From Sarcocystis neurona (lineage: Eukaryota > Apicomplexa > Conoidasida > Eucoccidiorida > Sarcocystidae): 64,000 bases of DNA. A program made the position numbers and the translations under genes. The stretch spans positions 1,654,940-1,718,939 of the forward strand of contig KL647304.1 of NCBI GenBank assembly GCA_000727475.1, in the 5' to 3' direction. The number at the start of each line of letters is the position of its first letter. Position 1 is the first letter of the stretch. The notes below the pieces were generated by a model. The model made no database searches. It saw only the letters and a program-made list of their open reading frames with translations, and had not been told where the DNA came from. This document shows positions 40,765 through 60,655 of this stretch, piece after piece.

Positions 40765-42021
40765 ATGCTGGCAAGTTCCGCTGCAACGACGTCTGCGGCA
40801 GGTGCACCAGCAGCACCTGTTGCGTCTACTGCTGCTGTTGCTGCTGGCCGGCCGCCGCTCCACGCTGCTGTTGCCGCTGCTGCTTCCTTCCCGCCAACTG
40901 CTCCTGTGTCTCAGGCGGCGACGCCTGCTGCTGACGTCGCTTCTACGGATCAGTCTGCTTCTTTGCCTGCCGCTGTTGCTGCGGCTGACTTCTCACCTGT
41001 GGCCGCAGCTCCTGCTGCTTTTACTTGTTCTTTGGCAGAGCGGCACTCCGGCTCTGCTGCAGTTCTTCCTGCTGCTGCTTCTACTCCTGCACCAGCTGCT
41101 GTTGCTGGTGGAAGCACAGAGATGACTTCGTCCGCGGGGGGTGCTGCAGCTGCAGAAGTTGTTGCTCAACTACGTCCTGGCACAGCAGCAGCAGCTTTCC
41201 TCTCCACAAGTTCTCCCGCGAATGGTGATGGACTGCCTGCTGCTACTTCTTCTCCTCCTGCTGCTGTTTCATCTCTGGCAGCGGCAGATTCGTCTAGGCG
41301 ACAGGCCTCAGCTGCTGCTCCACCAGTCACCGTCCGAACGTGCATCCGCCACTCTGCTGCTGCCGCGTCTGCAGCAGCTACGGCCGACGCGGGCGCTGCT
41401 GCAGCCACTGATGCGACTCTTCTGACGGTTTCTTCTCGACCTTCTGCTCCCCCTGCTGCTGCTGCTGCCGCTCCGGCCTCAGGCTTTGCTGTTGTTGCAG
41501 CAGCTAACACCAGTGCGCACGCTCTTTCTCCTCCTGACGCTGCTGTTGGTATTCTCTCTCGTGGTCGAGGCTCCTCGGCTTCCACCGACGCTCCCTCGTC
41601 TTCTCCTCTGTCTCCTTGCTCGGTCTTTGCTGTTGCAACTGCTGCACCTTCTGCTGCGTCACCGTCTGCAGCTGCTGCGGGTCTTCCTGCATCCCACCCG
41701 GCACTTGCTGGTGCTGTCGGAACCCCTGGATCGCCCTCTGCAATTGCTGCCGCTGCTGCTACTGCGCCTGCACCTGCACCTGCTGCTACCTTTGCTCCTG
41801 CAGTTGCTGCGTATGGTGCAGAGAGACGCCGCGGGGCAGAGCACTTGTCGTGGGGCCGCACTGCTGCCCCGATGGAGCGCGCAACAGCAGCGGAGGAAGT
41901 GTCGCAGCCGCAGCAGCGCTTGGTGGACCACACGAAACAGGAATTGCTGTGCACCGCATGCAAGACAGGGGATATTGCAGTTGTTCGAGCCATGCTGCAG
42001 GAAGGAGGGGTTGATATAAAT
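40765..42021 (+). CDS. ABTB1: ABTB1-like exon 1: Ala/Ser/Pro-rich N-terminus and first ankyrin repeat
   Basis: 419 codons from the ATG at 40765; the frame is closed upstream by TGA at 40675. Residues 1 to about 370 are low-complexity Ala/Ser/Pro/Thr, from CTG runs read in the GCT (Ala) frame. The last 35 or so residues form the first ankyrin repeat and end GGVDIN. The donor is AAT|GTACGT, phase 0. An acceptor-like TTTTTCCCGCGCTGCAG lies just before the ATG, so a further 5' exon cannot be excluded. Confidence 0.75.
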
Positions 42022-45000
42022 GTACGTTCTCTTTCTTTCTGCAGCAAATATATTCAGACCAAATCCTGCGTATATGACTTCCTCGGGGCTTCTGATGCTT
42101 TTGCACGACCGTCGTGCTCGTGCTCCTCCTCCTCCTTTCCCCGCTGCTGCTGCTGCGGTTCCTCCGTTTGATCTTCTTCCTGCTGCTACTCCTCCTCGGC
42201 TTCTGTGCTGTTGCAGCTGCTAACGTTATGCGGTGCTGGTGACTGCTGCGCTGTTGCTGCTGCTCCGGCAACTGTTGACGCGACTGCTGGTACTCCCCCT
42301 GCTGCTGCTGCTGTTTCTGTTGGTGAGCCCCGACGGACGACCGTCTCCTTTTGTAGCAGGAGACTGACGCTAATGCGTTTCTCCTGCTGCTACTGCGCGG
42401 GCTGCGGCTGTTGGGGGGATGCTGCTGGTGTCGCCGGCCGTTTCCCTGCTGGCCCACGCGAGCGCTTTTTCCTCGTCCTCCCCCACCTCCTCAGTCTCTT
42501 CCTGCTGCTGCGGCTGCTTGTCCTGCGCACTCCTCTTTGGCGCTGCATCTGCACCACTGGTGCTGCCCCTGCTGTTCGTCTACCCTGCTGCATCTCTTCT
42601 GTCGCTTGTGCGTTTCTGCTGCGAACGCGTCTCTGCTGCTGCTTCGTTCCTGCTGCTGCGTTTCTGCTGCTGCGAAGGTCAGTAACAGGAGGGCTGCTGC
42701 AGGCCGCAACGCCTCGACAACGGGCTGTCGCCGCTGGGTATTTTGCCCACCTAGTTCTAGGTCCCTACGCTGCTGCTCCGGTTGCTGATTGGCATGCTGC
42801 TGCAGCGCCTGCTGCTTGTAACCCTTTGCTGCTGCCGCTCCTGTGGCTGCTACGGGTCGTCGGCAGCTGCTGCTGCTGGGCAAAACACATGTCTAGGACA
42901 CGAAGAGCCGGCGCTGCCAGCCTTGCTATTCTCACCTGCGCCTTTTCTGGGCGCTGTTGCTGCTGTTTCTGTCGCCTGAGGTCCTCTGACCGCTAGTGCT
43001 GCTGTTGTGCCTGCGGCTCGACCTCAGCTACGCCGTTGCTGCAGCTGTTGCTGATGCTCCGACGGTCGCCGCTGTAGCAGCAGCAGCCGAATCTAGCCCC
43101 TAATGTTGGCGGCAGCAGCTGCGGTAGCCTAGCGTAGGAACCGGTTGCTGTTGTCGTCTGTACGCGCGCTAGCTGCTGCTGCTGTTTGCTCTTCTCCCGC
43201 GCTGCTGCAGCCGCTTCTACGGCCAACCACGCTGTACGTACTGCGTCGGATTGCCCTGTTGCTGCTATGTTTCACCCTCCCTGCTGCCTCTATACGAGGA
43301 TTGCTTTTGCTGCCGTTGCTACTCGCCGGTTCGTACGTATTCTGTTGCTGCTGGTTCAGCGTCGTCTGCGTGTTTCTATCCTCCATTCAGTCGGCGCAGT
43401 GAGTAATGCGCCGCTCGTACCTGCTCTTGGCTTTGCAGATGCTCCTGTTGCTGCCTCTCTATGTTCTGCTCGTCTTCTCGCTGCTCTTGCACCGTATACC
43501 TGCAAGGCATTTCTCAGCTGCTGCTGGTGTGCGTTGATCTGCTTCTACTGCCGTGGTGCGTTTTTGTCTGCTGCTGCTGCTGCTGTGGGTGGTGTGTGCG
43601 TATGCCGGTGCCAGTGACTTTGTGCTGCTGCTGCCGCGCTGTGTTTTCCTCTTCGCGCGGCGGGACTTTTTCTGTCGCCGTTGCTGGTGCGGCTGTGCTG
43701 CTGCGGCTGGCGGAGCTGCGGCTGCTGCGGATTGTCTGCTGCTCTGAGTGTACTGCTGCTGCTGCTGCTGCGTTGTGTGCACACACGTGCTGCTGCTGCT
43801 GCAGCTCCGAGATCGGTGGGACGCTTTCCCTCTCTATTACGCGTGCTACGGAGGACACCTGGACGTTGTGCGGCTGCTGACGGCATGCGGAGCCCGTTGC
43901 CAAGCCGGTACCTTCGACGGGGAAAGGTCAGTTTTCCTTCCGGTGGCAATTCCCTGCAGCTTTTCTTCTCTCGCTTTCTACTTCTCTCTCTTTTTCTGCT
44001 CTCTCTTTTTCTGGCTTTTCTTCTGCCGGGAAAACTTCTCTGCAGAATTCTCTCTTCCTCTCTGTTCCTCTCCCTTTTCTCTCTTCTCGTTTCTTCTCTC
44101 TTTTCTCCCGTGTCTTTGTCTTTCTCTTTTCCTGTATATCTCTGTCTCTCCGTCTCTCTTCTCTTCTTTTTCTTCCATTTTTTTTTAACTTCCGCTGGTC
44201 AACTCTGTGTCGCCCCCTTTCTCTGTGTGTCCCCGTAGTATCTCCTCCTGTCTCTGCCCCGCTCTCTCTGTGTGGCTGCTCTTCGTCTCCCCTCGCGTCT
44301 CGCCTTCCGTTTTCCTTCTCTGTCCCCATTTTCAGCCGTTTTACGTTCCTGCTGGTCTTCCTTCCGCTCGTCATCAATCTTGGTGATATTTACGTCCTTT
44401 TTCATCGGTCGCGTCTCTTGGTCGACAGATCGGTGGACTTCTCTTTGTCTGCCGCTCCTCGTCTATATCGCCCCCTCTGTTATACGAGAAGCTCCCCCTT
44501 CCTTGCTGCTTTTGCTGCTCCTGCTTCCCGCGCTCTTCCTCTCTCGCCCTTCTGGGCGCAGCTCTCTTCTCTCCCCCCCCTCCCTCTCTCTGTGTGTCCC
44601 TTCTCGGTTTTTCAACTCTTCTCTTCTTCGTCTACCACTTTGTCGCCGTCTTCTCCTTTTAATATTTGTCCTGTGTCTCGTTGCCTTTCTCGTCTGAATT
44701 CGACGACTTTCCCTCGTTCACGTTTTCCGCGCCGCCGTATCTCTCTGTCTCCGTCCCTTTTCTCAGGTGTATGTACGGCGCGCTAAACGACGAGATTCGC
44801 CGGGTGCTCCGACGCCACCGGCAGACGGTCGTTGTGAAGAGAGATCCTCTTGCTCTTTTCTTCCGCTTTCTTTTCCTTTCTTCTCCCTCTGCTGATTGCC
44901 TCCTCACCGCTACCGAAGATCTGCCGCTCTCCGCGCAGCTCTACGGCCCCTTCCTTCTTCCTTCTTCGCCTGCATCGACTTCGTCGTTCTACTCCTCATT

Positions 45001-48000
45001 ACCTGCTACGATCCGGTGTCCCACTGCGACAACTGCTGCTGCCGCTGCTGCCCCTGCTCATGCTTCTTCTGTCGACGCTACCGCTGTTGCAGCTTCTCCT
45101 GCTGCGACCGCTTCCGCTGCTGACAGTTCTGCTGCTGCTCCTAGTCGTGCTGCTGCTGCCACTGCTGCTGCTGTGGCTGCTTCGATTGCCGCTGATGCAG
45201 CCGCTGGCGATAATAACACTGGTGTCGCCCGTAGTCCTGCTGCTGCGACCGCTGCTGGCGCTGCAGTTGCTGTTGCTGCTGCGCTGTCTCCTCCTGCTGC
45301 CGCTGCTTCCTCGGCCTCGCGGACACGTTCTACTTCTTTGACGTCCATCCGCAGGGGCTCCTGTTCCGGTCTCCGCTGCTGCTGCTGCCGGAAGAGCTGC
45401 CGTGAGGGCGCAGCAACGGCAGCAGCAGAAGAAAGCGCAGCAGGCGAACAGCAAGACCAACGCCAAGAGCGATCGGCAACAACAGCGGGAGGAGCACAAG
45501 TTATGGAGGCTGCTGCAGCGGAATTCGTAGCGAGAAAAGAAGAGCTGCGAGCAGCAGCATCAGCAGCAGCAAAAGAAGCAGCGATACGAACAAAAACAGG
45601 CGAAGAACGAAGGAGAGGCACTGCAACAGCAGTACTGGCAGCAGGGAAAGAAGTCAAAGGAGAAAACGCAGCTGCAGGAGGACGGGTGAACGGAGGCGCA
45701 GCAGCAGGTGGAATAGGCGCAGGAGAAGGGAAACCAGCAGTCTCCATAGCAGCGAGACAAGAAGACGAGGATGCAAGAAAACATGCAGAGGCTGGACTGG
45801 GAGAACGGAGACTCGGAAGGAAAGCAGCAGCAGCAGGCCGCGGGAGAACAGAAGATGCAGCAGCAGAGACAGCACGAGGAGAAGCAGGCACGGGAGAAGC
45901 AGTACCCGCAGTAAGAACCGAAGAAAAAGAAGAAGCAGCAGGAGGAAAGGGGGCAGCAGCAGACGCACAAAGAACAACAGCGGCAAAAATGCAAGGTGAG
46001 GTCGCACCAGCAGTTAAATCGCTTGCGGAGCAGCAGGAACGGCGTCAGCAGCCCCGGGACAGATTCGAGAAGAAGGAGACGCAGCAGCACCAGGACAGAA
46101 AGAGAGTGCAAGTGAACGGACAGCACCAGGAGCTTCTGCCAGAAGGGAATGAGCAGCAGGAGCTGCGGCGAGAACAGAAGCAGGGGAAGCAGTGTGGGGT
46201 CCTGGCCGAGCACCAGGAGGAGAAGCAGCAGGAGGAGAAGCGTGGAGAGCAGGAGCAGCAGCCAGAGCAGGAGGAAGAGAGGGAGGAAGAAAGCCTTTAT
46301 GAGATAGACAACGAGCTGTATGTGTTGCTTGATACTGATAGTTTGTATGCGGAAAATAGCGAACATGCTGCTGTGGCGGTCGCAGCCAAAGACGGCCGTG
46401 AGCTGTTCAAACACCAAGAGGATCGACAGACGCTGCTGCCGGCAAATTATGTTGCTGCTGCTGCTGCCTCGTCGCCTTCTTTGCTGCAGCAACTGCAGCG
46501 ACGACAGCACTTCCGCCTCCAGCAGCAACAGCAGCAACAACTTTACGAGCGTCAGCAGGACCAGATCCTGGAGCAGCAGCAGCAACTGCTGCAGCAGTGG
46601 CATGCTCCGCTAACTGTACTGCCCGGGCAGCAGGAGCGGCGTTCGCAGCACCCACGTCTGCGGCAGCAGCCGTCGTTGTCTCGTGGAGTGCTGCAGCAGC
46701 AGCAGGAGATGCAGCAGCGCTCTGCTTCGCAGCAGCAGGTGGCCCAGGAGTGGACAGCAGGAACGAATACAGTAGGCAGCCGCCTGTTCGCTGTAAGACC
46801 GTGCGCGGGACATCGGAGGGCAGAAGCAGCACAGCAGCAGCAGCAGCTGCAGGAGGAGCGGGGAGGCGGCGGAGACGCAGTGTCAAGGTGTTTCGCCGGT
46901 GAGAAGTCAACTGCCCTACCTTACGATGCCAGAGACGAAAATGACTCTCCCTCTGTCCCTCTTGCCTCTCTGCTTTCTGCTATTTCAACAGGCCGAAGAG
47001 GAGCCAGCCGGACGCCTACGCGGTTCGCACAAACTTCGCGACTCCCTCCCTGCTGCTGCTGCAGCCCCGTCTTCTGCGGCTGCAGCAGCAGTCCATACCC
47101 GTTGCTATCCCAGACCGGCACGGCGAGGAGCGACAGCAGCACAAGCAGCAGCCGCAGAAGCACGGGGACGTGCAGCAACTGCAGCATATGCCACAGCGGC
47201 ATCGCAAGCCTGTCTAGCAGCAGCAGCAGTGGTCACGGCAGCAACCACGGCAGCGACAGTGGCTCTCGCAGCGCAAGAAGTCAGACTGACAGCAGCAGCA
47301 GCAGAAACAGCAGGGGCTTTGCCGAGCCCGAGGGAATCGCCGGCGCGTCTCTCAAGTGCGACCCGAGGACGTTACGGAGCAGCAGCAAGAGCAGGGGAAG
47401 GAGGACGGAGAGGATAGCCTCGCGCAGAAGGACGGCGGAGCAGCTGCAGGATCTGCTGCCGCCCCGCTGGCAGCTGCTGCCGGTTGACGGCTTGCGGTTC
47501 TCCCCCTCTGCTGTTGCTGTTGTGCACGCGCACCGCCTGGTGCTCTGCTGCCGCTCCTCGGTCTTCCGAAAGCATCTGGCGCGGCCGCATGCGCTGAACA
47601 GGAGGCTGATGAACGTCCTTGCCTTGCTGCTGCCGAGTGAGGAAGAAGAGGAACCCACCGCCACAGCAGAAACGCGTGCAGAAGCTCTGGCGGACGCGAG
47701 GAGTATTAGTAGTGGGACTTGCTTAGTTGCTGCTGCTGCTGAACCTGTTTATCCTCCAGCGACTGCTCCTGCGGATGAGGATGCTGCTGCCGGTCTTGCT
47801 GCTGCTGTAACTGCTGCAGCCGGTGCTGCTGCTCTCGATTTTCTCCCGGCTGCTTCACCAGCTGCTGCATCCGTTGCTTCGGGTGCTGCTGCTGCTGCGC
47901 TGGAGGCTGCCAGCTGCTCGGCTTCTGCTGCTGCTCGTGAAGGAGGAGCAGCTCGAGCGGCCTCCGACAGCGGCACGGCGACGCGAACGAGAAGCTGCCT

Positions 48001-51000
48001 CAGCGGCAGCAGAGACAGGGAGAACAGCAGCAGGCACGAGAGAGGAGGAGGAAGCAGCAGCAACAACACCAGCAGCGGCGTGGTCAACAGGTACAGCGTG
48101 CGGAGCAGCAGCAGTGAAGAAAGCAGGGACGGGAGCGCTGCTGTCTGGAGGGCCAGTGGCAGCGGAGAAGACAGCAGCAGAAACAGCGACGACGAGGCGG
48201 GGAGCGGATGCAGCAGCAGCAGCGGGTGCAGCAGGAGCAACAGCAGCAGCAGAGGTCACACGCAGGGGATCCCTGGCGGGCAGGATGAAGGAACGCAGGT
48301 GGTGAAGCAGCAGCACCCACCGGAGACGCGGCGCGTGCTGCAGCAGGCGCTGAGGCAGCGGCCTTACTTGCTGCAGCAGGTGTTGCGATGGGTGTACACA
48401 GACGAAATTGAGATTCTTCTGGAGGACAGCGATGCATGCGTTCTCCTTGCGGAGTCGCTTGGGTTGCAGCAGCTGAGCAGCAGACTTGCTGCAGAGAAAC
48501 GGGCGCTCGAGGAGGCAGCCCGTCCAGGCCGCAGCAGGCAATGCAGACGTAGCAGGAAGAAGAGGAGAGAGGACGGCAGCAGCAGCGGCAGCAACTCCGG
48601 GAGGAGCGGCAGCAGCGGTGGACTGAGCAGCAGCACCAGCAGCCGCAGAGCCGTCAGCAGCAGCAGCAACGCGCGCGGCAGCGGCAGCAACAGCGCAAGC
48701 AGCGACAGCAGCAGCAGACGGGAGAGCAGCGCCCGCAGCAGCGCTCACGGAGGCAGCAGCAGCAGCGGCAGGCACGACAACAGCGGGAGCAACGTCAGCG
48801 GCCTCAGCAGCGCCGCAGACAGGAGACTCAGGAGTGACGGCGCAGTCCCCGGTGGCGACAGCAGCAGCAGCAACAGCAGTGGCGCGGGGAACAGCAGCAC
48901 CAGCGTGCGTGGAGGCGCCCCCCGGGTGAACAGCAACGTAAGGAGAGCGGGGGGCAGCAGCAGCCGCAGAGAATCAAGGAAAAGTAGTGTTGCCTCGGTT
49001 CGGCCTCTTCTCGCTCTCGACCCACGTCGAGATTTCTCCTCGGAGTTAGCCGCGGACATGCGGCGGGCGGTCAGAAGCATCTTCAGGCATGCAGAGCGCG
49101 CGCAACAGCAGGCAGAACGCAGACGAAGGACAGCTGCTGCCGCAGCAGGAGCCGGAGCCCCTTCTGCAGCAACAGGACCTCCTGCCTTCTCCCCCGCGGT
49201 GGCTGCTCGAGGAGCAGCTGCAGCAGTAGCCGAGGTGGAGCAACCAGAAGTCGCAGGACGAACAGCAGCCGATGCCCCATGCCCAGCGCTATCACACGGA
49301 GAACCAGGAGCAACTTCACTAGACACAGCAGCCGCAGCAAGAGCAGCAGCAGATGCAGCAGACGCAGTAGCAGCAGCAATAACTGCAACAGGAGCATCAG
49401 GAGAAGCAGCAACAGCTGCAGCAGACGACACATCAGCAGCGGCAGTATCTGGATCAGTTGATGCACCGGCACAGAAGCGCAGCGCCGAAGAAGCAGTTGG
49501 CTACCGGCAGCTAGAGCAGCAGCAGAATAGGGGCAGCAGCAGCAGCCGCGGCAGCAGACAGGAAGTATCCCAGAACGAGTTTACTGTTGCTGCTGTACAG
49601 AATAGCAGCTGTCGCGTCCCTGTTAACACTGCTAGTACGGCGACGACTCGGATCACGTCGGTTCGCAGCAGCAGCAGCAGTTCCGTGGGGGGGCTGAGCG
49701 ATCCGACTAAAAGTAACAGGAGCGACAGGAGGAGCAGCAGCAGCCATGGTGAGACCCGAGGGAGACCGTGTGAAGCGGAGAGCGGCGGCAGGTGGGGCTC
49801 CTCTGTTCAGGCTGAAGAAGAAGAATATATCGATGTCTGCCTTGCTGCAGCAGATATCTGTTTCCTTGTTGGACCGGACCGAGTGCCCTTCCCGTGCCAT
49901 CGCTTCCTCGTAGAAAGCAGAAGTGCGTACTTCGCAACTTTGCTCGCTGCCCCTCGTCCGTCCCCGGGGGACGGGGAGGTTCACTACCGTGAGGTTGTTT
50001 TACCTCCCGCTGCCACCTCCGCCCCACCAACGCATTTTCTCGTCTCCCGGCCCCCCCCCACCCGAGCGATGGAGCAGAGAAACCCCGCCGCAGCAGCAAA
50101 GTGGGCCGCAGAAGAAGAAGCAGCACCAGCAGCAAGCTCTCGCCGGGCGTGCGGTTGCTGGTGTGATGACAGCTGCCTCTCGAGCACATCCCCGAGTTTT
50201 GCCAAGTGCAGTTCTCCAGGAAACCTCTGCATCCCAAAAGAGTGCACCCGCAGCTGCAGCAGCAGCACACAGCACCAGCAGAGCAGCAGCTGTTGTCGCT
50301 GCTGCTGCCACGGCAACAGACACAAAGGTTGCCTGTGCAGCGCGAGGAGCGACAGCAACAGCAGCTCCTCCTGCAGCAGCAGCAGCAACTGGACGAGCAG
50401 TCGCTGCAAGAGCGACAGCCAGGCGAGCACCAGCGCAGACAGCAACAGCAGCAGGTGTATCAGCAGCAGCAGCGAGACCAACAACACTGGTGCAGCCAGC
50501 AGAAGTATGGACACGCTAAGGCCTTGCTCGACACCGGGATACAGGAGAGGAATCAACGGAGTCTGGGCTGCTGTTGGCAAGCAGCCTGCTGCCCCTCCTG
50601 CTGACGGAGCCCTGCCGCTGCTGCGTCCACAGCAATTGGCGCTCGACCGGCAGCAGCACCAGGAAACGTTGTGTCCTCTTCTTCGTCAGCAGCAGATGCA
50701 GGAGCAGGGCCAGCAGCAAACGAAGCTCCAGCGGCAGCCTTCTTTCACCGAAGGAACCGCCAGTGCGGTGTCCTTGCAGGAGCTCGCGTGCAGCAACCGA
50801 CTGTCCAGCGGCAACACCCCCGGCTGGGTGGCTGGCAGCAGAAGAGGACGCAGCAGAAACAGCAGCCACGAAGGAGGCGATGGGAGAAGGAGTCGTATTC
50901 TTTTACAACACGGGCAGTGGAACTGGCCGCAGAGCCCGCCGGGCCAGGATCTTCTTGTTGCGCGGCACGTGTCGCGACACGAGCAGCAGCAGCAGGACGT

Positions 51001-54000
51001 AGACGCCTCTGCGGGACAGAGCGAGGGGCAGCAGCAGCAGCAGCGGGAGACGGCACTCCAGACAGGAATGCAGCAGCACTGGTTGTGCTGCTGCGACGCT
51101 CAAGACGCGTGGACCAGCTGCTCCTCCGTTTCGAGGAGCGGCACTCTCTCGCCTGCTACGTCTGTGGCGCTTCTCGACGCTGCTGTAGAAGAACGTTCGA
51201 TAGACTTTCAGCCTGCTGCTGCTTCTCTTTGCAGCGTGAAGCAAGTGACAACGTCCTCTTTCCCCACCTGGAGTTTTCTCGAAGAAACAGCAGCTGGTCT
51301 TCTCTGTGCTGCGGCCAAGCCGGAGCAGGGGACTATTGCTGTTTCTCCCGACTCCCGTGCGGCGGAAGATGCTACTGCTGCGCTTCCGTCGGCTGCTGCA
51401 GGTACTCAGCGGCCTCCTCCTGTTCTTCTACCCGGTACTGGCAAACTGCGAGAGATTGCTGCTGTTGCTGCGGTTCCGTCTGCTGGTCTTACTCGCGAGC
51501 GTCCTGCTGCGTGTCTCCCCTCCGGCGCTAGCAGCCCTAGGCACGTAGCCGCTGCTCCTGCTCTTCTTCCTGCTGCTTTTGCTGCTGCAGCGCTTACGGG
51601 AGCTACTTCGGCAGAAGGTTCTGCCTCCCTTTTTTCGGTAACGAAGACTCCTGAGGAATCTGCTGCCGCACGTTATTCCGCTACTGCGCCTGCTGCTGCG
51701 TCGCCCGAATTCACGCACCGTCCTCCTGCTGTCCATGAGGCACGTCCTGCTGCTTTGCCTTCTTCTTCTCTTTCTTCGGTTTCAGCTGCTGCGCCGGTGG
51801 CAGGGAACACAGAGGCTGTGTTTCCGTCTCCTGATGCTGCTCAACCCGCTGCTGCTGCTTGTAAACGTCCTGCTGCTAACGTGGATTCTGCGCGTTTTCG
51901 GCGACCCTCCAGGGCTTCTGCTATTCCTGCCGCGTTTACTGCTGCAAATATTGCCGCTGTGCCAGCTGGTGCTGCTGCTGCTGCGGCACGGGGTCCTGCG
52001 ATCACCGATGCTGCTGTGTGTGGAGAGAGCAGCCCTTTTATATATGGTGGGGCGCTTCCTGAACTTCTGCCTTCGCTACATGCGGCAGCTGGTGGTGGTC
52101 CTCCTGCTAGTTTTCAGCCTAACGCAGAAGTGGGTATTGCGACTACTGCTGCTGCTTCCGCGACGACTTGTACAGCTGCCCGTGATGCCGCTGTTGGGAC
52201 CGTTACTGCTGCTGCTAGGAACACTGCCACTGTCGCAACCGCTGAGGTTGACAGCACTCCTGTTGTTCCTCCTCCTACTGCTGCTGACACTGCTACCGCT
52301 GCTGCTGCTGCTGCTCCTGCTGGCGCTCGGGTAGTTCCGCGTGCTCACTCCTTACCTGCCGCAGCGGCAGCCGGTAGCGGGAGATTGACAGCTGCTGCTG
52401 ATGAGCCGGAGGGCGGCTCTGACAGCAACAGCAGCGCGGGGCATCCAACAGCAGCTGCTCAGCTCTGCACCGCTTCTTCGTCGTCTCCTGCAGGGCATGG
52501 AGAGGCGCGGTGTTTTCCCGAAGGGGGGACAACGAGACTGCGGCTGCTGCAGCAACCACATGAACAACCGCTGCAGCAACCTACAGAGAAGCAGCAAGCA
52601 GAACGCCACCAACCGCAGCAGAAGCAGCAGCGACAAGGACAAGCCGCTGGGGAACCTCAGGCGTCGGATGAAGCGAAGCAGCAGCAGCATTGGCAAGAAG
52701 AAGAACAAGAGCAGCAGCAGCGGCGCTTCCCGAGGCAAGAGCAGTGTCGCAGAGTCCCGCAGCATCGGACAGCAGAGCAGCCGCGACACCAGCAGCAGCA
52801 GGGAGAACTACGGCAGCACGTAGAATGGGAGGACGGGTGCCAGCCACCTTGGCTGCAGCCAGAGCAAGAGCAGCAGCAGCTGCAGCCGCTGCTGCGGGAA
52901 GGAGAGGAACGGCCACAGCAGTCAGAGCCGCAGCAGCAACAGCAACAGAATGAAGACGAAGGAAAAGAGCAGCAGGAGGAGAGTGTCCACCGGCAGCCAC
53001 AGGACACGTGGGTCGTGTCGCAGCATCAGGAACTGGAGCCCGAGCAGCAGCTTTGCTGCTGCTGCTGCAGCGCCCGCGTAGAGAACAGAGAGGAAAAGCG
53101 AGGTTTCTCTGGCGGGGAGGATAACGGCCTCTACTACGGTTCGTGGGTGGGAGTCTACGCGTTAGAGAGCACCGACGTCTGCTGCTTCGCTTTGGCGCTG
53201 GAGTACATGTACACCGAGACGCTGCTGCAAGTCCCCTCCCCTTTAACTGCGGCAGCAGCAGCACCTGCTGTGTCTCAGCAGGAAGACGAAGCAGATGCTG
53301 CTGCTGCCGCAGAGGTGCTGCTGCGTCTCATGGACTACGCACGCATGTGGCTGATGCCCGGTAGGATGCCGACCCAGCAGCAGCAGTAGCCCACTGGCTG
53401 TGCCGCTGTGTCCACTTCAGTTTAGGCGCTGCTGCTGTGCCGGGAGCGCGGTTGCTGCTCTTGCAATTACTGCGGCACAGTGATAGAGGAAGTGCTGCTG
53501 CTGCTGCTGCTCCTGCCAAAAGGTACTACTGGGGCGGTTGCTGCTTATGGCTGGTGCTCGTGACGGCTGCCACCGGTCGCTGCTGCTGCTCGTCTGCTAA
53601 CATGTCCGACAGTCGTGCCTCCCGCTGCTGCTTGCCGCCGCGTCCTGCTGCCTTCCGCAATCACAGCCGATGAGGTCATTTCTAAAAAACTACCTGGTGT
53701 TTACCGACGCGCATGCGTGCGTCTCATATATATATATATACGCAGGTCCCCACGGACATACAGAATTGATTTTCCAAACATACGTACTGCGCACGAATGG
53801 GTGACGCCACACCGGTACGTATACAGAGATACATGAAGACGTCCCCGTATATATATATATATATGTATATACGTATGTACACATATATGTGTATATGCAT
53901 ATATATATATATATATATACACGTATATCTGGCGTGCATGCATTCATATATATATATATATATCTATATACACCTAATTGTTCTTCTTGTAAATCGATAC

Positions 54001-57000
54001 ATATACGCACATGTGGACGGAGACATGGAGCCTGAAAGTGTCGGCATCTCTGTGTGGACGTACTGGAGTGGCAGAATGCCTCGCGCAGATTATTTTGGGC
54101 TGGTGATCAGCCCGTAAGGGGGGAGGACCAGGAGACCTTTGCTGAGAAAATTTAGTAGAAGGTTTCTCGAGATTTGCTGACCGAGTTGTCCCCCGTAGAC
54201 CGGCGCTGCACAGAGACAGCGCCGTGACGAGAGAGAGCGGCGCGCGTGCAGTACGGCGCCGCAGAAGGCGTCGCTGGTGCAGCAGCAGCAGGAGGGGACC
54301 GTGCGCATCAGGGACAGAGAGAGAAAGACAAGGAAGAGTAGGAGAAGAAGGCGGGAACGGTTGCCTGCGCAAGGAGGGGGAGTCAGCGTGGTAGAGGAAG
54401 GACACGATTTATAAAGCAGCACTCCAGAGGACGTAGAGGGCAGCGCTGCAGCTGTCGGCGGCTCACCCATTTCCTAGAACAACACCGCAGCAGCAGCAGG
54501 AGAGACCGCGCGGGGCGCCCAGCGCGGGGCGCTGGGGGCAGCAGGGAACCGGCGGCAGCTGCAAGCGAACAGCAGCAGCAGCAGGCAGACAGCAGCAGCA
54601 GGCGGGCAGCAGCAGCAACAGGCGGGCAGCAGCAGCAACAGGCGGGCAGTAGCAGCAACAGGCGGGCAGCAGCAGCAACAGGCGGGCAGCAGCAGGAGGC
54701 CGGCAGCGGCAGCAGGCCGGCAGCAGGTGCCCGCTCCTTCTGCGGTCGCAGATCACAGCACGTCGCTCAGTCGAAGAGAAGACGAGGAAAAGGTGTGCGC
54801 GCCGAGGCAAGCTTCTCTCTGTCGCTCTCTCATCAGAGACGCACGATAAGGAGCCGCGCGCCCGGCCTTCCTTGTTCAGCAGGGAGATGCACCTGCCTGA
54901 GAAACGAGGAGATGCCGGCGGGTGTGTGAGGCGTGCAGCAGAGATGGTGACGCGCAGTCAGATTTGTAGGCAGTTTTCGCGGGTGTAGAATTCGTCGGAA
55001 GAACATTGCAGACCACAAGCTTTCCTCACTCCAAGCTGTCTGTACTTCTTATTTTTCTGGTGTTCGCATTTCGCTTGCCGACTGGCCGGCTCTGCAGCTT
55101 CCTCACGTCCCTATCGGTGCCGGCTAGCTGTCCGCCTGGTTGCTGCTGCTCTTTTGTGGCTGCAGCTGGGCGTCGTTGCTGCTGCCGGCGCGGCGGGTGC
55201 TCCTGCGCGTTTCTGGCTGCCGGTGCGGCTACTGCCGCTTCTACTGCTGCTGCTGCCCCTGCTGCGGCTGCCACCGCTTTTGCTCCTGCGGCTGCTGCCG
55301 CTTCTGCTGCTGCTGCCCCTCCTGCTGCTGCTGCTGCCGTTCCTGTTGCTGCTGTTGCTGCAGCGTCTGCTGCAGAGCGATGAAGAGTGGTCAAGCATGC
55401 TGCTGCTGTAGTAGTGGCTATTTGGCGGTACTGCGTCTGCTGTCACTCGCTGCTCCTCACTTCTGCCTGCAGGGTTGGTGCGCGCGTGTTCGGCGGCCCT
55501 GGTGCCGCTGGTGGTGCTGTCGAACGTTTGCAGCATCTACAGCGCTGCGGAGTTACTGCGGCTGGACCGCCTGCTCTTCCGCTGCGCTGCTGTGATGGCA
55601 GAGAAGCTGGAACTACTGCTGCAGCAGCCCACGTTTCAGCAGCTGGTGCTGCAGTCCGCGCTGTCGGTCGAGAACCGCCAAGCGGTGGATTCTATCCCGG
55701 TGGTCGAAGACGTGCTGGCGGCTCTCGCAAGGCTCTACGGGGTCGAAGGCGGCCAGGCGGAGGAAGAAGAAGAGGAAGAGGAAGAGGCAGCTGCTTCCGC
55801 GCGCGAACTTGAAACTGTACGCCTGAGCGCATCATCCACGGCAGTCGCCGCACAACAGCAGCACCAGCAGCCCCGGGGCAGCAGGGCAGACCAGCAGCTG
55901 CAGGAACAGCAGCGCAAGTTGTGCCCCCCAAGAAACCGCAGCAGCACGAACACACACACGCACGCACAGCAACAGCAGCAGCAGCAGTTCAGAAGCAGCA
56001 GTGAGACGCACAGAGGAGTGACGGCGGCAGATCATACGCAGGAGCAGCCCCACGCACACAGCAGCAACAGCAGCCGCACGCACACAGCAGCAGCAATAAC
56101 GCATTCGAAGCTGCAGCAGCACACATACCGCAGCAGGAGCGGGGAATCTGAAGCAGCGGCAAGAGGAGCAGCAGGTGAAGACAGCAACAACCGCAAGAGT
56201 AGCGGCAGAGGGAGAGAAGCTGTTCAGCAGAGCACCGGTGACAGCAGCAGGAGCGGGTTAACAGGAAGCGAAGAGAAGCAGCTGCAGCAGCAAGAGAATT
56301 CGAGGAAGAGAGAAGGTGCGGAATCGGGGGGAGTAGCGGCAGCACCAGTGAAAGCAGCTTTAAGTCAGCTTCAACGCAGCCGCAGCACAAACGTCCAGAG
56401 TTCAGCAGGTGTGCCTGAGCGATTCTTTAGCAAGCTGTGAGGCGCGCTGTCTTGGAGCTGCAGACGCAGAGGCGCAGGAGCTGCACACGAGGCGCACTAT
56501 CGAAGAAAAAAGCAACAGCAGCACCCCCACGTTCAAGCAGCAGCTGCCGCAGGAGGAAGAAAGTACGACCTGCAGAAATACTGGCAAAGGGACAGCAGCG
56601 GTAGCGCGCGGGAGGGCACGAGCTGGGGAACGGGAAAATGTACGGGAGCAGTAGTAGTATCGAGCAGCAGCAGCAGCAGAATGGAAGCCGTTGCAGCAGC
56701 AGCGATGCTGAAGTAGACCTGCAGCAGCAGTCGTGAAGAAGCAGCAGCTGCAGGCGTGGTAAGGCGCACAGCAGGAGTTCGGGAGCTGCAGCAGCAGCAG
56801 AACTGAAGAGGAGGCGCAGCAGCAACGGAGAAGCAGAAGAAGAAGCAGCAGCAGCAGAGCGTCAGCAGCAGGACTGACGGGCAGCTGCGGCAGTCGTGAA
56901 GGCGGCACAAGAGCCGTGGGGAAGGAGAGCAGCAGAAAGAAGCAGCAGTGAGAGAGCTGCAGAGAACAAGCGGCAGCAGGTGTGTGCGGCCCTGCGATGC

Positions 57001-57318
57001 AGGAGGAGGACACAAGCAGCAGAACGCGGCAGCGGTGGCAGAAGAGCAAAGAAGCCAAGGGACCCTCTGGAAGACAGCAGCAACAGCAGCAGCTGGCGAA
57101 ACACCAAAGAGGCCGTACATTTCTCCGTTTCTTACTGCTTCATTTCAGCCTATCTGTTCGAGATGTATATAACTTTGCGGAAGGAAGGGAAAGGAAAACA
57201 TTTGTTTATGTCATACGTCTTCGTGCACTACTCCCGTAATTCTGCGAACGTGAACTTGCGCTCCTGCCACACAGACCTGTAATCCGGGTGTACGTACACT
57301 GCAGTTCTTCGTGATACG

Positions 57319-57349
<31 letters not shown>

Positions 57350-60300
57350 GTGTCCACGTGCAGTGCGTCGCATTCACAAGGCACGCTCCGTGGCCCCGGT
57401 GTACGTACACCGCACTTTTGACTGGTGGCCTCTCTCTGTTTATGTTTTTTTCTCTCTCTCGCTATGTGTGTGCGTTTCTCTCTTTTTCTCCGTCTTCCAC
57501 TAATTAACCCGGTGGCCTGTCACTCTCTCTGTATCTATCTGTCTTTTCCCCTGTCTCTCTTTTATTCTGGTGGCCTCTGTCTGTAACTTTTTTCTCTCTG
57601 TGTGTTCTCCCGTCTCTTTTCCTCTCTTTTATTGTGGCGGCCTCTATCTTTTTCTTTCTCGCTTTTCCTTTCTGTCTTTCCCTGCGCCTCTCTCTTTTGT
57701 CCACACGACCCCACCCTGTACAGAGACGCACACACGTCGGGCAGAGAGTCCAGAAGCACTGCTGCCGGCGGGGATGTGCCGCGCGGGCTGACTATGCGTC
57801 CGTTCTGAACAGAACCCTCTTTTTCATCGCTGCTTGGTGTGGGGGAGCTGCGTCTGCCTGAAGAAGTGTGTCGTATTCAAAGAGGGGGGCAGCAGCAAAA
57901 CCGCAGAGGCTGGCCAGGGTCTGCTGACGTGGGGGGAATGATGGCGAGACGAGACGGAGAAGTCCTGCTGCTGCTTAGCAACTGGGGGACTTGGGGGGGG
58001 GGGGGGGTTCGACGAGCATGGGGTGTGCAGCAGCAGCTCGCAAGACAGCGCTCGACAGCTGCTCCGTACCCCACACACTTTTCCTGGCGAGCGAGTGCAG
58101 CTCTTCTCTCAATACAACATACACTAGCGGTGCTTTTACCCAACCCGCGCTGCAGCAACGCCTCTTCAAGCGTCTCGCTGTGGCGCCATTCTCACGTAGA
58201 TATGTCTGGGTGAAGGAAGAGTCGCGGACGTGCGCGGCTCCGCGGCTGGTCTGCGAGGGCAGGCTTCTTCTTTCTCGGAGGCTTGTGTATGTGTAGGCAC
58301 CTGGGGAGAAGGAGACCGTTTCGAACCTCTGCGTCATGTGGCCGAGCTGTTTTCCTAAATGTTCGTATTGCTGTGTATGTAGATAAGGTAGTAAAGAGAC
58401 GATAGATGTAGATCCGTCCAATAAAGAGAGAGAGAGAAGGACGTAGGCAGTGGCATGTGGATATACATAGGCGCAGGTAGGGAAGGACAGGCAGTGACGG
58501 TTGTCGCTAGAAGCACTGGTATACTTGGACGTTGGAACTTGTGTCCGTGCGTGCAGTAGTTGCTTGGGGTTGGCAGCGCGGTCGGGGGAGGGGGGGTCGA
58601 AGAGGTGTCTCAGGGACGCAGCGGTACACTTTGTCTCGCCGTCTGCGTTTTCTTCTGGTCTGCTATTCACGCGTTTGCGTTTTGTTGCTGCTTTCGCCTG
58701 GGTCTGCTGGTGCCTGCAGTGCAAGGTGCAGCTGCAGGAACTGCCGTTTGCCGCGTGTGACGAGGAAGATCCCTTAGCAGGAGAAACGGGCGCAGCAGCA
58801 GCCGAAGCAGCGGCAGCAGGAGCCGCAGCCGGAGCACCAGGAGCCGCAGCAGCAGCTGCTGGCGCAGCAGCACAGGCGGCAGCGGCAGCGGCTTCATCGA
58901 AGCGGGCAGCACATGCCCAGCGAAGGAAGTCGCTCCGAAGAAAGAGAGAGGGAACCGGATCCGTTGGCGACCACAACAAAAGCAGCCGTCGCAGCAGCAA
59001 CAGCAGCAGCAGCGCCAGCAGCAGCAGCGCCAGCTGCAGCAGCACCAGCTGCAGCAGCACCAGCAGCAACAGCACCAGCAGCAGCAGCACCAGCAGCAGC
59101 AGCTCCAGCAGCAGCAGCACCAGCAGCAGCAGCACTAGCAGCAGCAGCACAGCAGCAGCAGCAACAGCAGCAGCAGCAACAGCAGCAGCAGCAACAGCAG
59201 CAGCAGCAACANNNNNNNNNNNNNNNNNNNNNNNNNNNNNNNNNNNNNNNNNNNNNNNNNNNNNNNNNNNNNNNNNNNNNNNNNNNNNNNNNNNNNNNNN
59301 NNNNNNNNNNNNNNNNNNNNNNNNNNNNNNNNNNNNNNNNNNNNNNNNNNNNNNNNNNNNNNNNNNNNNNNNNNNNNNNNNNNNNNNNNNNNNNNNNNNN
59401 NNNNNNNNNNNNNNNNNNNNNNNNNNNNNNNNNNNNNNNNNNNNNNNNNNNNNNNNNNNNNNNNNNNNNNNNNNNNNNNNNNNNCACCAGGAGCAGCAGC
59501 AGCAGCACCAGGAGCAGCAGCGGCAGCACCAGCTGCAGCAACATGAGCGGCGGGGGCAGCAGCAGCATGAGCAGCAGCAGCATGAGCAGCAGCAGCATCA
59601 ATAGGAGCGGCAGCACGAGCAGCAGCAGCGGCGCCAGCGGTTTCGATTCGAGTAACAGCAGCAGTTGCAGGCCTCGCTGCAGCTGCGGCAACAGCGCCAG
59701 CAGTAGCAGCAGCGGCTGCGCCAGCAGCAGTGCTGACGGGAGCAAGCCGTGCAACAGCAGCAGCAGCCCGCGCTTTCTTGTTCGTAGCTGCAGTTGCTGC
59801 AACTTCCATACCCGGCTACCAGGCAGCAGCAACGCAGAGAGCAGCAATAGCAATATATCGAAGAGGAGCTGCCAGGGGCAAGATGAAGAACAGCGGCACG
59901 GTCCTTGCAGCGGGAAAGTTGAAAGAAGTGAGACAGCAGAGAAAGGACACGCAGAAGGACCGCCGCATGCAACAACAGCGTCAGCGGCAGCCTCACAGGC
60001 TCAGGTACAACCGAGCAGCAGCTGCTGTGAATTCAACCCCGCGTCCAGCACGAGCAGCTGCTCTTGTACCCACAGCAGCAGCCGCAGTCATCGGTATATG
60101 AGCAGCAGCAGCAAACCGGATGACGCCGCCAGCAGGAGCTGTTTCACCAGCAGCAGGAAAGGGCGAAAGTGTTCCGCCTGCAACAACAGCAGCTGCAGCT
60201 GCTGCAGCAGCAGTCGCAGCACAAGTGGTGATTGCGCGGGTGCGTCCAGCAGCAGAAGTGGTAGTACTGGCACGCAAGCCTGCAGTTCCACGGCTTGGAG

Positions 60301-60655
60301 AAGCAGCCACAGCGGGTGCAAGTGCCCCAGCAGCAGCAGCGCCGATACCAACAGCAGCGGCACCGACACTGCCCACAGCAGCAGCGGCGGCGGTAGCCTT
60401 GGCGGTGTGAAAAAGGAAGTGGTACGGCGTGGGGGGAGTGCAGGACGTGGGTCAGAGAGAGCAGCAGCAGCGCGACGGCGAGCTCAGCAGCAGCAGAAGA
60501 AACTGAAGCAGCAGCGGCAACAGAAAAGACAGCACACCCAGCAGCAGCATGTCTCGCTGGTGGTGGGTCCTGACGTCCTGCTACTCCGAAATTTACACCG
60601 AGAAAAAGTAGCCCTGATGGACGCGTTCCTCGCTCAGCTAGGCCTGAATGCATGA
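40765..60655 (+). CDS. ABTB1: ABTB1/BPOZ-like ankyrin-repeat double-BTB protein, giant, multi-exon
   Basis: The predicted exons are 40765-42021, 43805-43926, 44767-53360, 55473 to about 56408, and a last exon ending at 60655. The first three junctions agree in phase (0, 2, 1), and the joined reading runs through family motifs without a break. Motifs in order are: ankyrin (LLCTACKTGDIAVVRAMLQE, then FPLYYACYGGHLDVVRLLTA); the diagnostic ARCQAGTFDGERCMYGALND; a first BTB; a second BTB (AADICFLVGPDRVPFPCHRF); MWLMPGLVRACSAALV; VDSIPVVED; and a C-terminus MDAFLAQLGLNA. This order matches ABTB1, about 480 residues in animals, reported as a BTB-type adaptor linked to ubiquitin-mediated turnover and translation factor eEF1A. 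Here the length would exceed 4,000 residues, the excess being Ala, Ser and Gln-rich insertions. Assignment as the orthologue is strong. Function in this organism is inference. Confidence 0.85.
42022..43804 (+). other. ABTB1-like intron 1
   Basis: 1,783 bp, GTACGT...CTGCTGCTGCTGCAG. It is dominated by CTG runs on the sense strand and stays open for long stretches, but with none of the family motifs. The acceptor is the end of a CTG run. Confidence 0.75.
43805..43926 (+). CDS. ABTB1: ABTB1-like exon 2: second ankyrin repeat
   Basis: 122 nt encoding LRDRWDAFPLYYACYGGHLD and on to GARCQAGTFDGE. It starts in phase 0 after a CTG-run acceptor and ends in phase 2 at GAAAG|GTCAGT. The split Arg codon is completed by the first base of the next exon, giving the continuous family signature DGERCMYGAL. 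This exon has no homopolymer, so its reading frame is unambiguous. Confidence 0.88.
43927..44766 (+). other. ABTB1-like intron 2, pyrimidine-rich
   Basis: 840 bp, GTCAGT...TTTTCTCAG. Almost entirely TCTCT/CTTTT sequence on the sense strand, with few CTG runs, unlike introns 1 and 3. Confidence 0.8.
44767..53360 (+). CDS. ABTB1: ABTB1-like exon 3: both BTB domains with giant repeat insertions
   Basis: 8,594 nt open without a stop. It begins CMYGALNDEIRRVLRRHRQ. The first BTB is in two pieces: PVDGLRFSPSAVAVVHAHRL and CCRSSVFRKHL at about 47470-47600, then LLQQVLRWVYTDEIEILLED and LLAESLGLQQLSSRLA at about 48360-48500. The second BTB is likewise split: CLAAADICFLVGPDRVPFPC and FLVESRSAYFATLL at about 49835-49960, then LALEYMYTETLLQV at about 53190-53230 and LMDYARMWLMPG at 53328-53360. 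The gaps within the two folds are about 230 and 1,070 residues. Between pieces the sequence is Ala, Ser, Gln, Glu and Arg-rich. The donor is CCCG|GTAGGA, phase 1. All pieces share one frame, so small internal introns in multiples of three cannot be excluded. Confidence 0.85.
53727..53975. repeat. TA/TACA microsatellite in intron 3
   Basis: Several (TA)n tracts of 12-20 bases with ACGTATGTACACATA stretches between. Confidence 0.8.
54601..54695. repeat. 20-bp minisatellite GGCGGGCAGCAGCAGCAACA
   Basis: Four copies at exact 20-bp spacing (54601, 54621, 54641, 54661; the third has one base changed) and a partial fifth. The period is not a multiple of three, which fits an intronic position. Confidence 0.92.
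55473..56408 (+). CDS. ABTB1: ABTB1-like exon 4: BACK-like C-terminal region
   Basis: It starts in phase 1 after TTCTGCCTGCAG. The completed Gly codon gives MWLMPGLVRACSAALV across the junction, matching the family's LPGLKRLC region. It then reads LSNVCSIYSAAELLRLDRLL and CAAVMAEKLELLLQQPTFQQ, and RQAVDSIPVVEDVLAALARL, the last matching the family's DSIPLVDD motif. From about 55755 it turns into Glu, Gln, Ser and Arg-rich low complexity. The 3' end is uncertain: CAG|GTGTGC after 56408 (phase 1) is one candidate, and CAG|GTGAAG after 56174 (also phase 1) is another. The frame is open to 56440. Confidence 0.8.
57288..57411. other. Pair of GTGTACGTACAC palindromes flanking a (CA)n run
   Basis: Exact copies lie at 57288-57299 and 57399-57410 (the latter a 14-bp palindrome with flanking G and C at 57398 and 57411), 111 bp apart. 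A (CA)n run at about 57319-57345 lies between them. On the minus strand the sequence after the first copy reads PDYRSVWQERKFTFAELRE, so a minus-strand exon is conceivable. Confidence 0.88.
57420..57660. repeat. Degenerate tandem of GGTGGCCTCTCTCTGT units
   Basis: GGTGGCC or GGCGGCC blocks occur near 57425, 57510, 57569 and 57634. Each is followed by TCTCTGT and TTTTTCTCTC tracts. It is intronic. Confidence 0.7.
58778..60655 (+). CDS. ABTB1: ABTB1-like last exon: low-complexity linker and conserved C-terminus
   Basis: The frame is open from 58778 across the N run to the TGA at 60653. Before the gap it is (APAAA)n from 15-bp units. After the gap it is Ser/Cys/Gly-rich and then basic and Gln-rich (QQQQKKLKQQRQQKRQ). 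The last residues, VVGPDVLLLRNLHREKVALM followed by DAFLAQLGLNA, match the family's final helix (LEDLLVSIGLDC type) and fix the frame and stop. The start of the exon and the frame left of the gap are not fixed, since gap length is unknown. A neighbouring frame at 58720-58910 reads complex (VQLQELPFAACDEEDPLAG) and could be the true start. Confidence 0.65.
   Translation, partial: QEKRAQQQPKQRQQEPQPEHQEPQQQLLAQQHRRQRQRLHRSGQHMPSEGSRSEEREREPDPLATTTKAAVAAATAAAAPAAAAPAAAAPAAAAPAATAPAAAAPAAAAPAAAAPAAAALAAAAQQQQQQQQQQQQQQQQQQQQXXXXXXXXXXXXXXXXXXXXXXXXXXXXXXXXXXXXXXXXXXXXXXXXXXXXXXXXXXXXXXXXXXXXXXXXXXXXXXXXXXXXXXXXXXXXTRSSSSSTRSSSGSTSCSNMSGGGSSSMSSSSMSSSSINRSGSTSSSSGASGFDSSNSSSCRPRCSCGNSASSSSSGCASSSADGSKPCNSSSSPRFLVRSCSCCNFHTRLPGSSNAESSNSNISKRSCQGQDEEQRHGPCSGKVERSETAEKGHAEGPPHATTASAAASQAQVQPSSSCCEFNPASSTSSCSCTHSSSRSHRYMSSSSKPDDAASRSCFTSSRKGRKCSACNNSSCSCCSSSRSTSGDCAGASSSRSGSTGTQACSSTAWRSSHSGCKCPSSSSADTNSSGTDTAHSSSGGGSLGGVKKEVVRRGGSAGRGSERAAAARRRAQQQQKKLKQQRQQKRQHTQQQHVSLVVGPDVLLLRNLHREKVALMDAFLAQLGLNA
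59010..59211. repeat. 15-bp (GCACCAGCAGCAGCA)n and (CAGCAGCAGCAA)n array
   Basis: About nine 15-bp units, then shorter Gln-coding units, running up to the assembly gap. The array is the likely cause of the gap. Confidence 0.88.
59212..59484. other. Assembly gap (N run, 273 positions)
   Basis: It sits inside a CAG-based array in the last ABTB1-like exon. True length and frame effect are unknown. Confidence 0.98.

Follow-up and report, generated by a model that had tools for sequence, protein, structure and literature searches.

The gene and its conserved islands

The window, by which we mean the whole 64,000-nucleotide stretch of Sarcocystis neurona DNA that was analysed (contig KL647304.1, C17:1654940-1718939, in a genome of 122,989,501 bases on 74 contigs), holds what appears to be a gene of the ABTB1 type. 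Ten conserved islands, 506 residues in total, lie colinearly across 41.9-60.65 kb, and when they are joined they read as an ABTB1-type protein with the domain order ankyrin, YGAL helix, BTB, BTB and DSIPVVED helices. All features of this gene are on the forward (+) strand and are given in window coordinates.

The exon borders are clean for exons 1-4, and all three joins between them give continuous residues in phase. Exon 1 (40765-42021) begins with an Ala-rich N-terminal extension of 386 residues (40765..41922), counted from the first in-frame ATG; other candidate Met codons stand at 41122 and 41872, plus one at 41992 inside island 1. The first ankyrin part, island 1 (41923..42021; VDHTKQELLCTACK..GGVDIN), ends with DIN before the donor GTACGT. 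Exon 2 (43805-43926) is island 2 (LRDRWDAFPLYYACYGGH..FDGE(R)), which runs from LRDRWD to FDGE plus two bases and is followed by the phase-2 donor GTCAGT. In exon 3 (44767-53360) the first base completes the codon for R, CMYGAL follows, and the exon closes with MPG in phase 1. At its start lies island 3 (44767..44875; CMYGALNDEIRRVLRR..LFFRFLF), followed by insert 1 (44876..47449), 858 residues rich in Ala, Gln and Ser that stand before BTB1. The first half of BTB1 (island 4, 47450..47635) is separated from its second half (island 5, 48362..48529) by the 242 residues of insert 2 (47636..48361), and the Ser-rich insert 3 (157 residues, 48530..49000) leads to the inter-BTB segment, island 6 (49001..49111; DPRRDFSSELAADMRRAVRSIFRHAER). 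Insert 4 (234 residues, 49112..49813) is then followed by island 7 (49814..50008), the first half of BTB2 (Pfam BTB positions 5-44), by the largest insert of the gene, insert 5 (1,043 residues within BTB2, 50009..53137), and by the second half of BTB2, island 8 (53138..53242; ..ALEYMYTETLLQVPSP). After a 22-residue Ala-rich insert, island 9 begins in exon 3 (53309..53360; AEVLLRLMDYARMWLMPG) and runs to the phase-1 donor GTAGGA, and exon 4, which begins at 55473, resumes it with GLVRAC (55473..55741; GLVRACSAAL..DSIPVVEDVLAALARLYG). Past the last conserved residue, the exon 4 frame stays open over 55742..56437, with candidate donors at 56001, 56175, 56238, 56316, 56409 and 56437. The tail island, island 10 (60551..60655; VSLVVGPDVLLLRNLHREKVALMDAFLAQLGLNA, then a stop codon), lies at the end of a further open reading frame (ORF; exon 5 ORF) that is open upstream of it over 58778..60550, with paired acceptor candidates at 59683-60382 and a 273-N gap at 59212-59484.

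Several lines of evidence bear on the identity of the gene. First, the joined islands were aligned with human ABTB1 (BPOZ-2; 478 residues) and scored 523 with 169 of 446 aligned residues identical; 200 shuffles gave a mean of 39.5 (standard deviation 5.3) and a maximum of 56. The islands had been chosen partly by eye against this same human sequence, and the margin over the shuffles is far larger than such selection could give. Second, the nearest proteins found are coccidian. The joined islands score 782 against the Toxoplasma gondii protein P0005 (211 of 390 residues identical), and in another alignment identity to the islands is 53% for T. gondii and 64% for the Besnoitia besnoiti protein P0006, while BLASTP gives 43% over 62% of the query and 60% over 29%, respectively. 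Of 7,993 candidates scored in a first protein search, four proteins were returned: these two, taken as orthologues, and two others with ankyrin-type Pfam domains without BTB. Third, Pfam recognises Ank_2 (34.8 bits) in the joined core, followed by FDGERCMYGAL, which fits an N-terminal ankyrin pair with DGERC.YGAL, and BTB (64.1 bits) in two stretches, that is, a tandem BTB; the human sequence gives the same domains. When the pieces are searched separately, three of the four BTB halves (both of BTB1 and the first of BTB2) give matches that stay under the curated cut-off, and the second half of BTB2, which has no Pfam match alone, was placed by its alignment to the human YYMYSD. Fourth, the C-terminal helix pattern DSIP[LV]V[DE][DE] with a short tail helix is present as DSIPVVED and KVALMDAFLAQLGLNA. 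The islands do not form a contiguous ABTB1 of ~480 residues, and size was not taken as defining. A search of the same genome gave ten matches, all at this locus, and no second copy was found by it.

These results support the view that the locus is an ABTB1-type gene, found in one copy, intact and under constraint. The original prediction, made from the letters alone, had named an ABTB1 orthologue with its motifs in order at these positions, FDGERCMYGAL across a phase-2 junction (FDGE-R/CMYGAL), DSIPVVED, and a gene under selection rather than decaying with its insertions in frame. The islands, their order and positions, the phase-2 junction and DSIPVVED are confirmed. The orthology, the constraint and the in-frame inserts are supported by comparison of the joined translation with domain profiles and coccidian proteins, as that prediction had proposed, and by the frame analysis below.

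Reading frame, length and make-up of the inserts

The frame of exon 3 is free of stops over 2,864 codons. The two remaining forward frames hold 71 and 48, and the three reverse ones 55, 34 and 35; from local composition modelled separately for each codon position, 27-59 would be expected in the exon 3 frame. The same is seen within the two longest inserts. Insert 1 (846 residues tested) has no stop, with 12 and 20 in the other forward frames, 10-20 over all five other frames and 8-17 expected, and insert 5 (1,034 tested) has none, with 12 and 26 forward, 8-26 over all five and 9-23 expected. Going by these frames, the inserts are most likely translated.

The length of the protein depends on how the 3' end is read. 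Exons 1-3 with the entire exon 4 open frame give 3,646 residues in a single stop-free joined model that contains nine of the ten islands. For intron 4 there are 20 frame-keeping donor/acceptor pairs at the thresholds used, which, counted from the first ATG and with no splicing inside exon 3, give totals of 3,736-3,969, and on this basis the protein probably has ~3,740-3,970 residues. The bounds, again for an unspliced exon 3, are ~3,448 residues, if only the islands are counted after exon 3, and 4,271, if both whole ORFs (exons 4 and 5) are used, for which no supporting splice pair was found; a start at Met 41872 would subtract 369 from every figure. The 506 island residues are thus diluted about 7.4-7.8-fold, and not ninefold as had been proposed, and a length of over 4,000 residues is possible without being the best estimate. 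In the same way, the proposed five exons hold for exons 1-4, and the start of exon 5 is given by candidate acceptors only, in an ORF with the N gap. At this gap, a GCA/CAG tract of more than 200 bases leads into the Ns (58991-59484), and the assembly break seems to be caused by the long repeat.

As to position, the break falls between Pfam BTB positions 42 and 64 in BTB1 and after position 44 in BTB2, which places both inserts in the same loop; in the BTB fold this loop follows the third strand and precedes the helix with L.YLYT. At the BTB1 loop the T. gondii protein is longer by ~76 residues, and a long linker before PDVLL.R occurs in both it and the Besnoitia protein. Because of these shared features, the permissive sites look older than this lineage, and on the sequences compared the growth looks to be in insert length.

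The inserts had been described as homopolymer, and this does not hold in the literal sense, which is ruled out by only three runs of at least 7 in the 3,646 residues of exons 1-4 (Q7, E9 and Q7, the last two in the exon 4 tail, whose end is set by candidate donors). The longest Ala and Ser runs have 6 residues, no run of 7 of A, S, L or N occurs, and the exon 5 ORF adds one Q20 adjoining the N gap. In Eimeria, homopolymeric amino acid repeats (HAARs) are defined as runs in which A, S, Q, L or N is repeated 7 or more times, so that only the two Q7 runs (one in the exon 4 tail) and the Q20 qualify here, and because such runs are nearly absent the inserts as a whole are not HAARs. They do share with HAARs the presence of CAG-type repeats in the Ala, Ser and Gln phases within coding sequence. 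Codon use is mixed: Ala is encoded by GCT 191, GCA 140, GCG 70 and GCC 60 times, Ser by AGC 191, TCN 126 and AGT 29 times, and Gln by CAG 162 and CAA 36 times, as expected of old, mutated trinucleotide repeats.

The phase of these repeats was counted wherever 3 or more CTG-type units stand in a row. Such runs fall in the Leu, Cys and Ala phases of exon 3 2, 5 and 24 times, respectively, compared with 18, 18 and 15 in a presumed-noncoding control, and the skew persists when runs within 60 nucleotides are counted once (2, 5 and 14; p = 0.004). Since the Leu phase is one-step safe from stops, its rarity points to selection on the protein, and the shortage of Leu and Cys phases suggests that selection sees the inserts in their translated form.

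Large open frames in kinases of the same genome

The habit is not confined to ABTB1. A kinase-family search of the same genome, in which 134 of 297 candidates were scored so that all counts are lower bounds, gave at least 138 matches; among the matches listed, 12 (nine ORFs) lie in open frames of at least 2,000 codons, and 7 (five ORFs of 4,011, 3,721, 3,398, 2,920 and 2,913 codons) lie in frames longer than the 2,908-codon ORF of ABTB1 exon 3. Two of the eight stretches fetched, those with the 3,721 and 2,913 ORFs, hold Ns (552 and 275), and these two lengths may be inflated because Ns are read as open. At least nine pairs of kinase pieces, paired by hand on the same contig, strand and ORF length, share one ORF without inner stops at gaps of 78-2,732 residues. 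The sharpest example is a PKA/PKG-like kinase exon in the 2,920-codon ORF (L009:504-9263, within C2:8346600-8356500), in which YRDLKPENILL..DFGFAKQL is followed by an insert of ~2,725 residues in the activation loop and then by TYTICGTPEYLPPEV. There is no in-frame stop in the insert, against 51 and 74 in its two other forward frames. Once joined, its flanks match chains of PKG and PKA (best 6.2e-28 over 70/71 residues, among the best 60 of 1,582). No plausible donor or acceptor lies at the insert borders; donor-like sites scoring at least 7 lie internally at 4530 (11.3) and 5849 (8.2) of L009. Two further kinases show shorter in-frame gaps: the one in C2:3992000-4001900 (L016) has ~460 residues from HRDMKPDN to DFGLAR and ~270 from DFGLAR to LSPEI, and the one in C14:2055500-2065400 (L011) has ~330 from DFGLCC to GTLQYMAPEV. 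The original description of the ABTB1 gene as an extreme case is therefore weakened: 7 of the at least 138 kinase matches lie in longer ORFs, and the kinase with the ~2,725-residue loop shows the habit more sharply than ABTB1 does.

In eight kinase loci, the longest ORFs also show the phase skew of CTG-type runs (Leu 13, Cys 4, Ala 56), which remains after clusters are merged (12, 4 and 27; p = 7e-5), in ORFs that were picked as long open frames, a choice that may bias against the Cys phase.

Searches for long relatives gave nothing: region 920-1800 of P0001 had none at E <= 0.001 among 7,974 candidates sharing most words, and region 1686-1776 of P0009 had none among 1,079, both weak negatives given word sampling and length limits. 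An IMG/VR scan gave 40 pattern matches, none of them confirmed.

By the tests made, ABTB1 is the sole gene recognised in the window. In the upstream part (1-40500), 9 of the 39 ORFs of at least 220 residues were tested against Pfam with no match at E <= 0.01, and a tRNA scan found none. The window has 74 CAG plus CTG per kb and one occurrence of the telomere-like heptamer AAACCCT/AGGGTTT in 64 kb. A 575-N gap lies at 15735-16309, with 44-52-bp tandem units and TA-rich tracts on its flanks.

Interpretation and comparison with known systems

Taken together, the data are best explained by an ABTB1-type coccidian gene in which a scaffold of ~500 residues would be made as a protein of ~3,700-4,000 residues through in-frame, repeat-derived inserts, a reading to which we give a probability of roughly two in three. 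Under it, CAG/CTG trinucleotide expansions would lengthen loops and linkers while the frame is kept, and the expanded repeats would then decay through point mutation. The inserts would be translated in full, the islands may refold as a single ankyrin/BTB/BTB body from which the inserts loop out as disordered chain, and the protein could retain the scaffold or ubiquitin-ligase adaptor role of animal ABTB1/BPOZ-2. This function is suggested by orthology; BPOZ-2 is reported to promote ubiquitylation of eEF1A1, as given in the title of Koiwai et al. 2008 (cited in PMC4768134). The inserts are most likely tolerated rather than functional.

Several results weigh against this interpretation. The presumed-noncoding controls contain only ~0.45-1.2 of the stops that the same composition model predicts, so that the true expectation for exon 3 is lower than 27-59, yet far from zero. 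A composition-only cause of the open frame is rejected for the whole of exon 3 and for inserts 1 and 5; it may still hold for the shorter inserts taken alone, where the deficit of stops is not significant singly for inserts 2-4 (231, 154 and 229 residues tested; 0.1-3.4 expected) nor for the 22-residue insert (19 tested). The CAG-type runs of exon 3 are spread over the phases with little skew (Gln 20, Ser 26, Ala 11; p = 0.05), and the bias of its CTG-type runs fades when they are counted once within 150 nucleotides (2, 5 and 7; p = 0.26). AlphaFold2 modelling, with 3 sequences for the T. gondii protein and 2 for the BTB1 piece including its insert, gave mean pLDDT (predicted local distance difference test) values of 41.6 and 45.9; these are too poor to show refolding, and the models were not used. 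Finally, in-frame splice candidates lie within three of the inserts. In insert 5, donors at 50161 (5.8) or 50101 (5.2) paired with 53070 would cut 970-990 of the 1,043 residues; in insert 1, 45996 to 46991 would cut 332; and in insert 2, 47637 to 47861 would cut 75.

These candidates raise the possibility that some of the inserted sequence, mainly insert 5 but also a portion of insert 1 and the open frames of exons 4/5, is intronic and open by chance, which would leave a protein of perhaps 2,300-3,500 residues, still much enlarged. Splicing at the largest candidate in each of inserts 1, 2 and 5 (-332, -75 and -990) would together take out up to 1,397 residues, for a total of ~2,340-2,570. The donor at 45996 scores 11.1, higher than the gene's own donors (5.6, 8.4 and 6.2), and the end of exon 4 and the start of exon 5 can be placed at several candidate sites. 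However, no splice pair was found at both borders of an insert in any of the inserts checked, and at thresholds of a donor score of at least 5.0 and a pyrimidine fraction of at least 0.69, frame-keeping pairs within inserts 1-5 are as common on the antisense strand (22: 10, 1, 0, 0 and 11) as on the sense strand (21: 5, 1, 0, 0 and 15). Donor-like density is also alike (9 of 335 GT in exon 3, 13 of 437 antisense). In-frame pairs are thus no commoner than chance, and introns would have no reason to keep inserts 1 and 5 free of stops when the other five frames are not. A partly spliced exon 3 with shorter products is possible; as an account of the inserts, we consider introns unlikely.

Removal of the inserts from the RNA or the protein along a non-canonical route, leaving a mature scaffold of normal size, is very improbable. 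An insert of ~2,725 residues in the activation loop would be hard to square with a working kinase if it were translated intact, and the bare borders of that insert fit such a route, but the same kinase ORF has internal donor-like sites, and the phase bias against Leu and Cys suggests protein-level selection on the inserts. In addition, Eimeria HAARs are stated in a review (PMC7564333) to be transcribed and translated, apparently without harm. In a wider form, inserts of hundreds to ~2,725 residues would break adaptor and kinase domains at set loops across the genome and would be removed non-canonically after transcription or translation, with the frame kept by leaky removal; we give this little credence. 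That the locus is not one gene, with islands on separate transcripts, or is a decaying pseudogene, is highly unlikely, as the N gap in the last ORF and an intron 4 defined only by candidate pairs are set against three in-phase junctions with exact residue continuity, nine of ten islands in one stop-free model and the single copy found in the genome.

If the inserts are translated whole, as we favor, this genome would offer many natural experiments on how much unstructured chain is tolerated within a domain loop, with a BTB domain carrying ~1,040 residues and a PKA/PKG-like activation loop ~2,725. The data also suggest that repeat-derived sequence can decay beyond homopolymer and yet stay in frame, so that HAAR counts based on runs miss such cases, and gene finders and orthology pipelines may split or miss such genes. 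Literature searches on ABTB1 in Apicomplexa and on Eimeria low-complexity insertions in kinase domains found no paper.

Compared with animal ABTB1/BPOZ-2, the gene keeps the order and residues of the ankyrin part, DGERC.YGAL, the two BTB domains, GL.R.C...L and DSIP.V.D, whereas it is 7-8 times longer if exon 3 is unspliced and carries inserts in the linkers and in both BTB domains. The T. gondii (652 aa; annotated as an ankyrin repeat-containing protein) and Besnoitia (288 aa) proteins have inserts far shorter than those described here; the YGAL piece and the initial half of BTB2 are missing from the T. gondii protein, probably through a fault of the gene model. The closest known phenomenon is that of the Eimeria genomes, which are ~50-52 Mb in size (PMC9131526; PMC12102361, E. 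acervulina 52 Mb) compared with 123 Mb here. HAARs are described for E. tenella, with 28,483 runs of 7 or more (PMC9131526), and occur in 30% of the proteins of E. falciformis (PMC4287421). According to the same two sources, HAARs resemble the present inserts in their CAG/CTG trinucleotide origin, their Ala, Ser and Gln residues and their location within conserved genes. In contrast, the inserts here are long, mixed and degenerate, lie inside domains and have almost no qualifying runs. Conserved genes littered with CAG repeats are known from Eimeria, and what is newer is the size of the inserts and their degenerate make-up.

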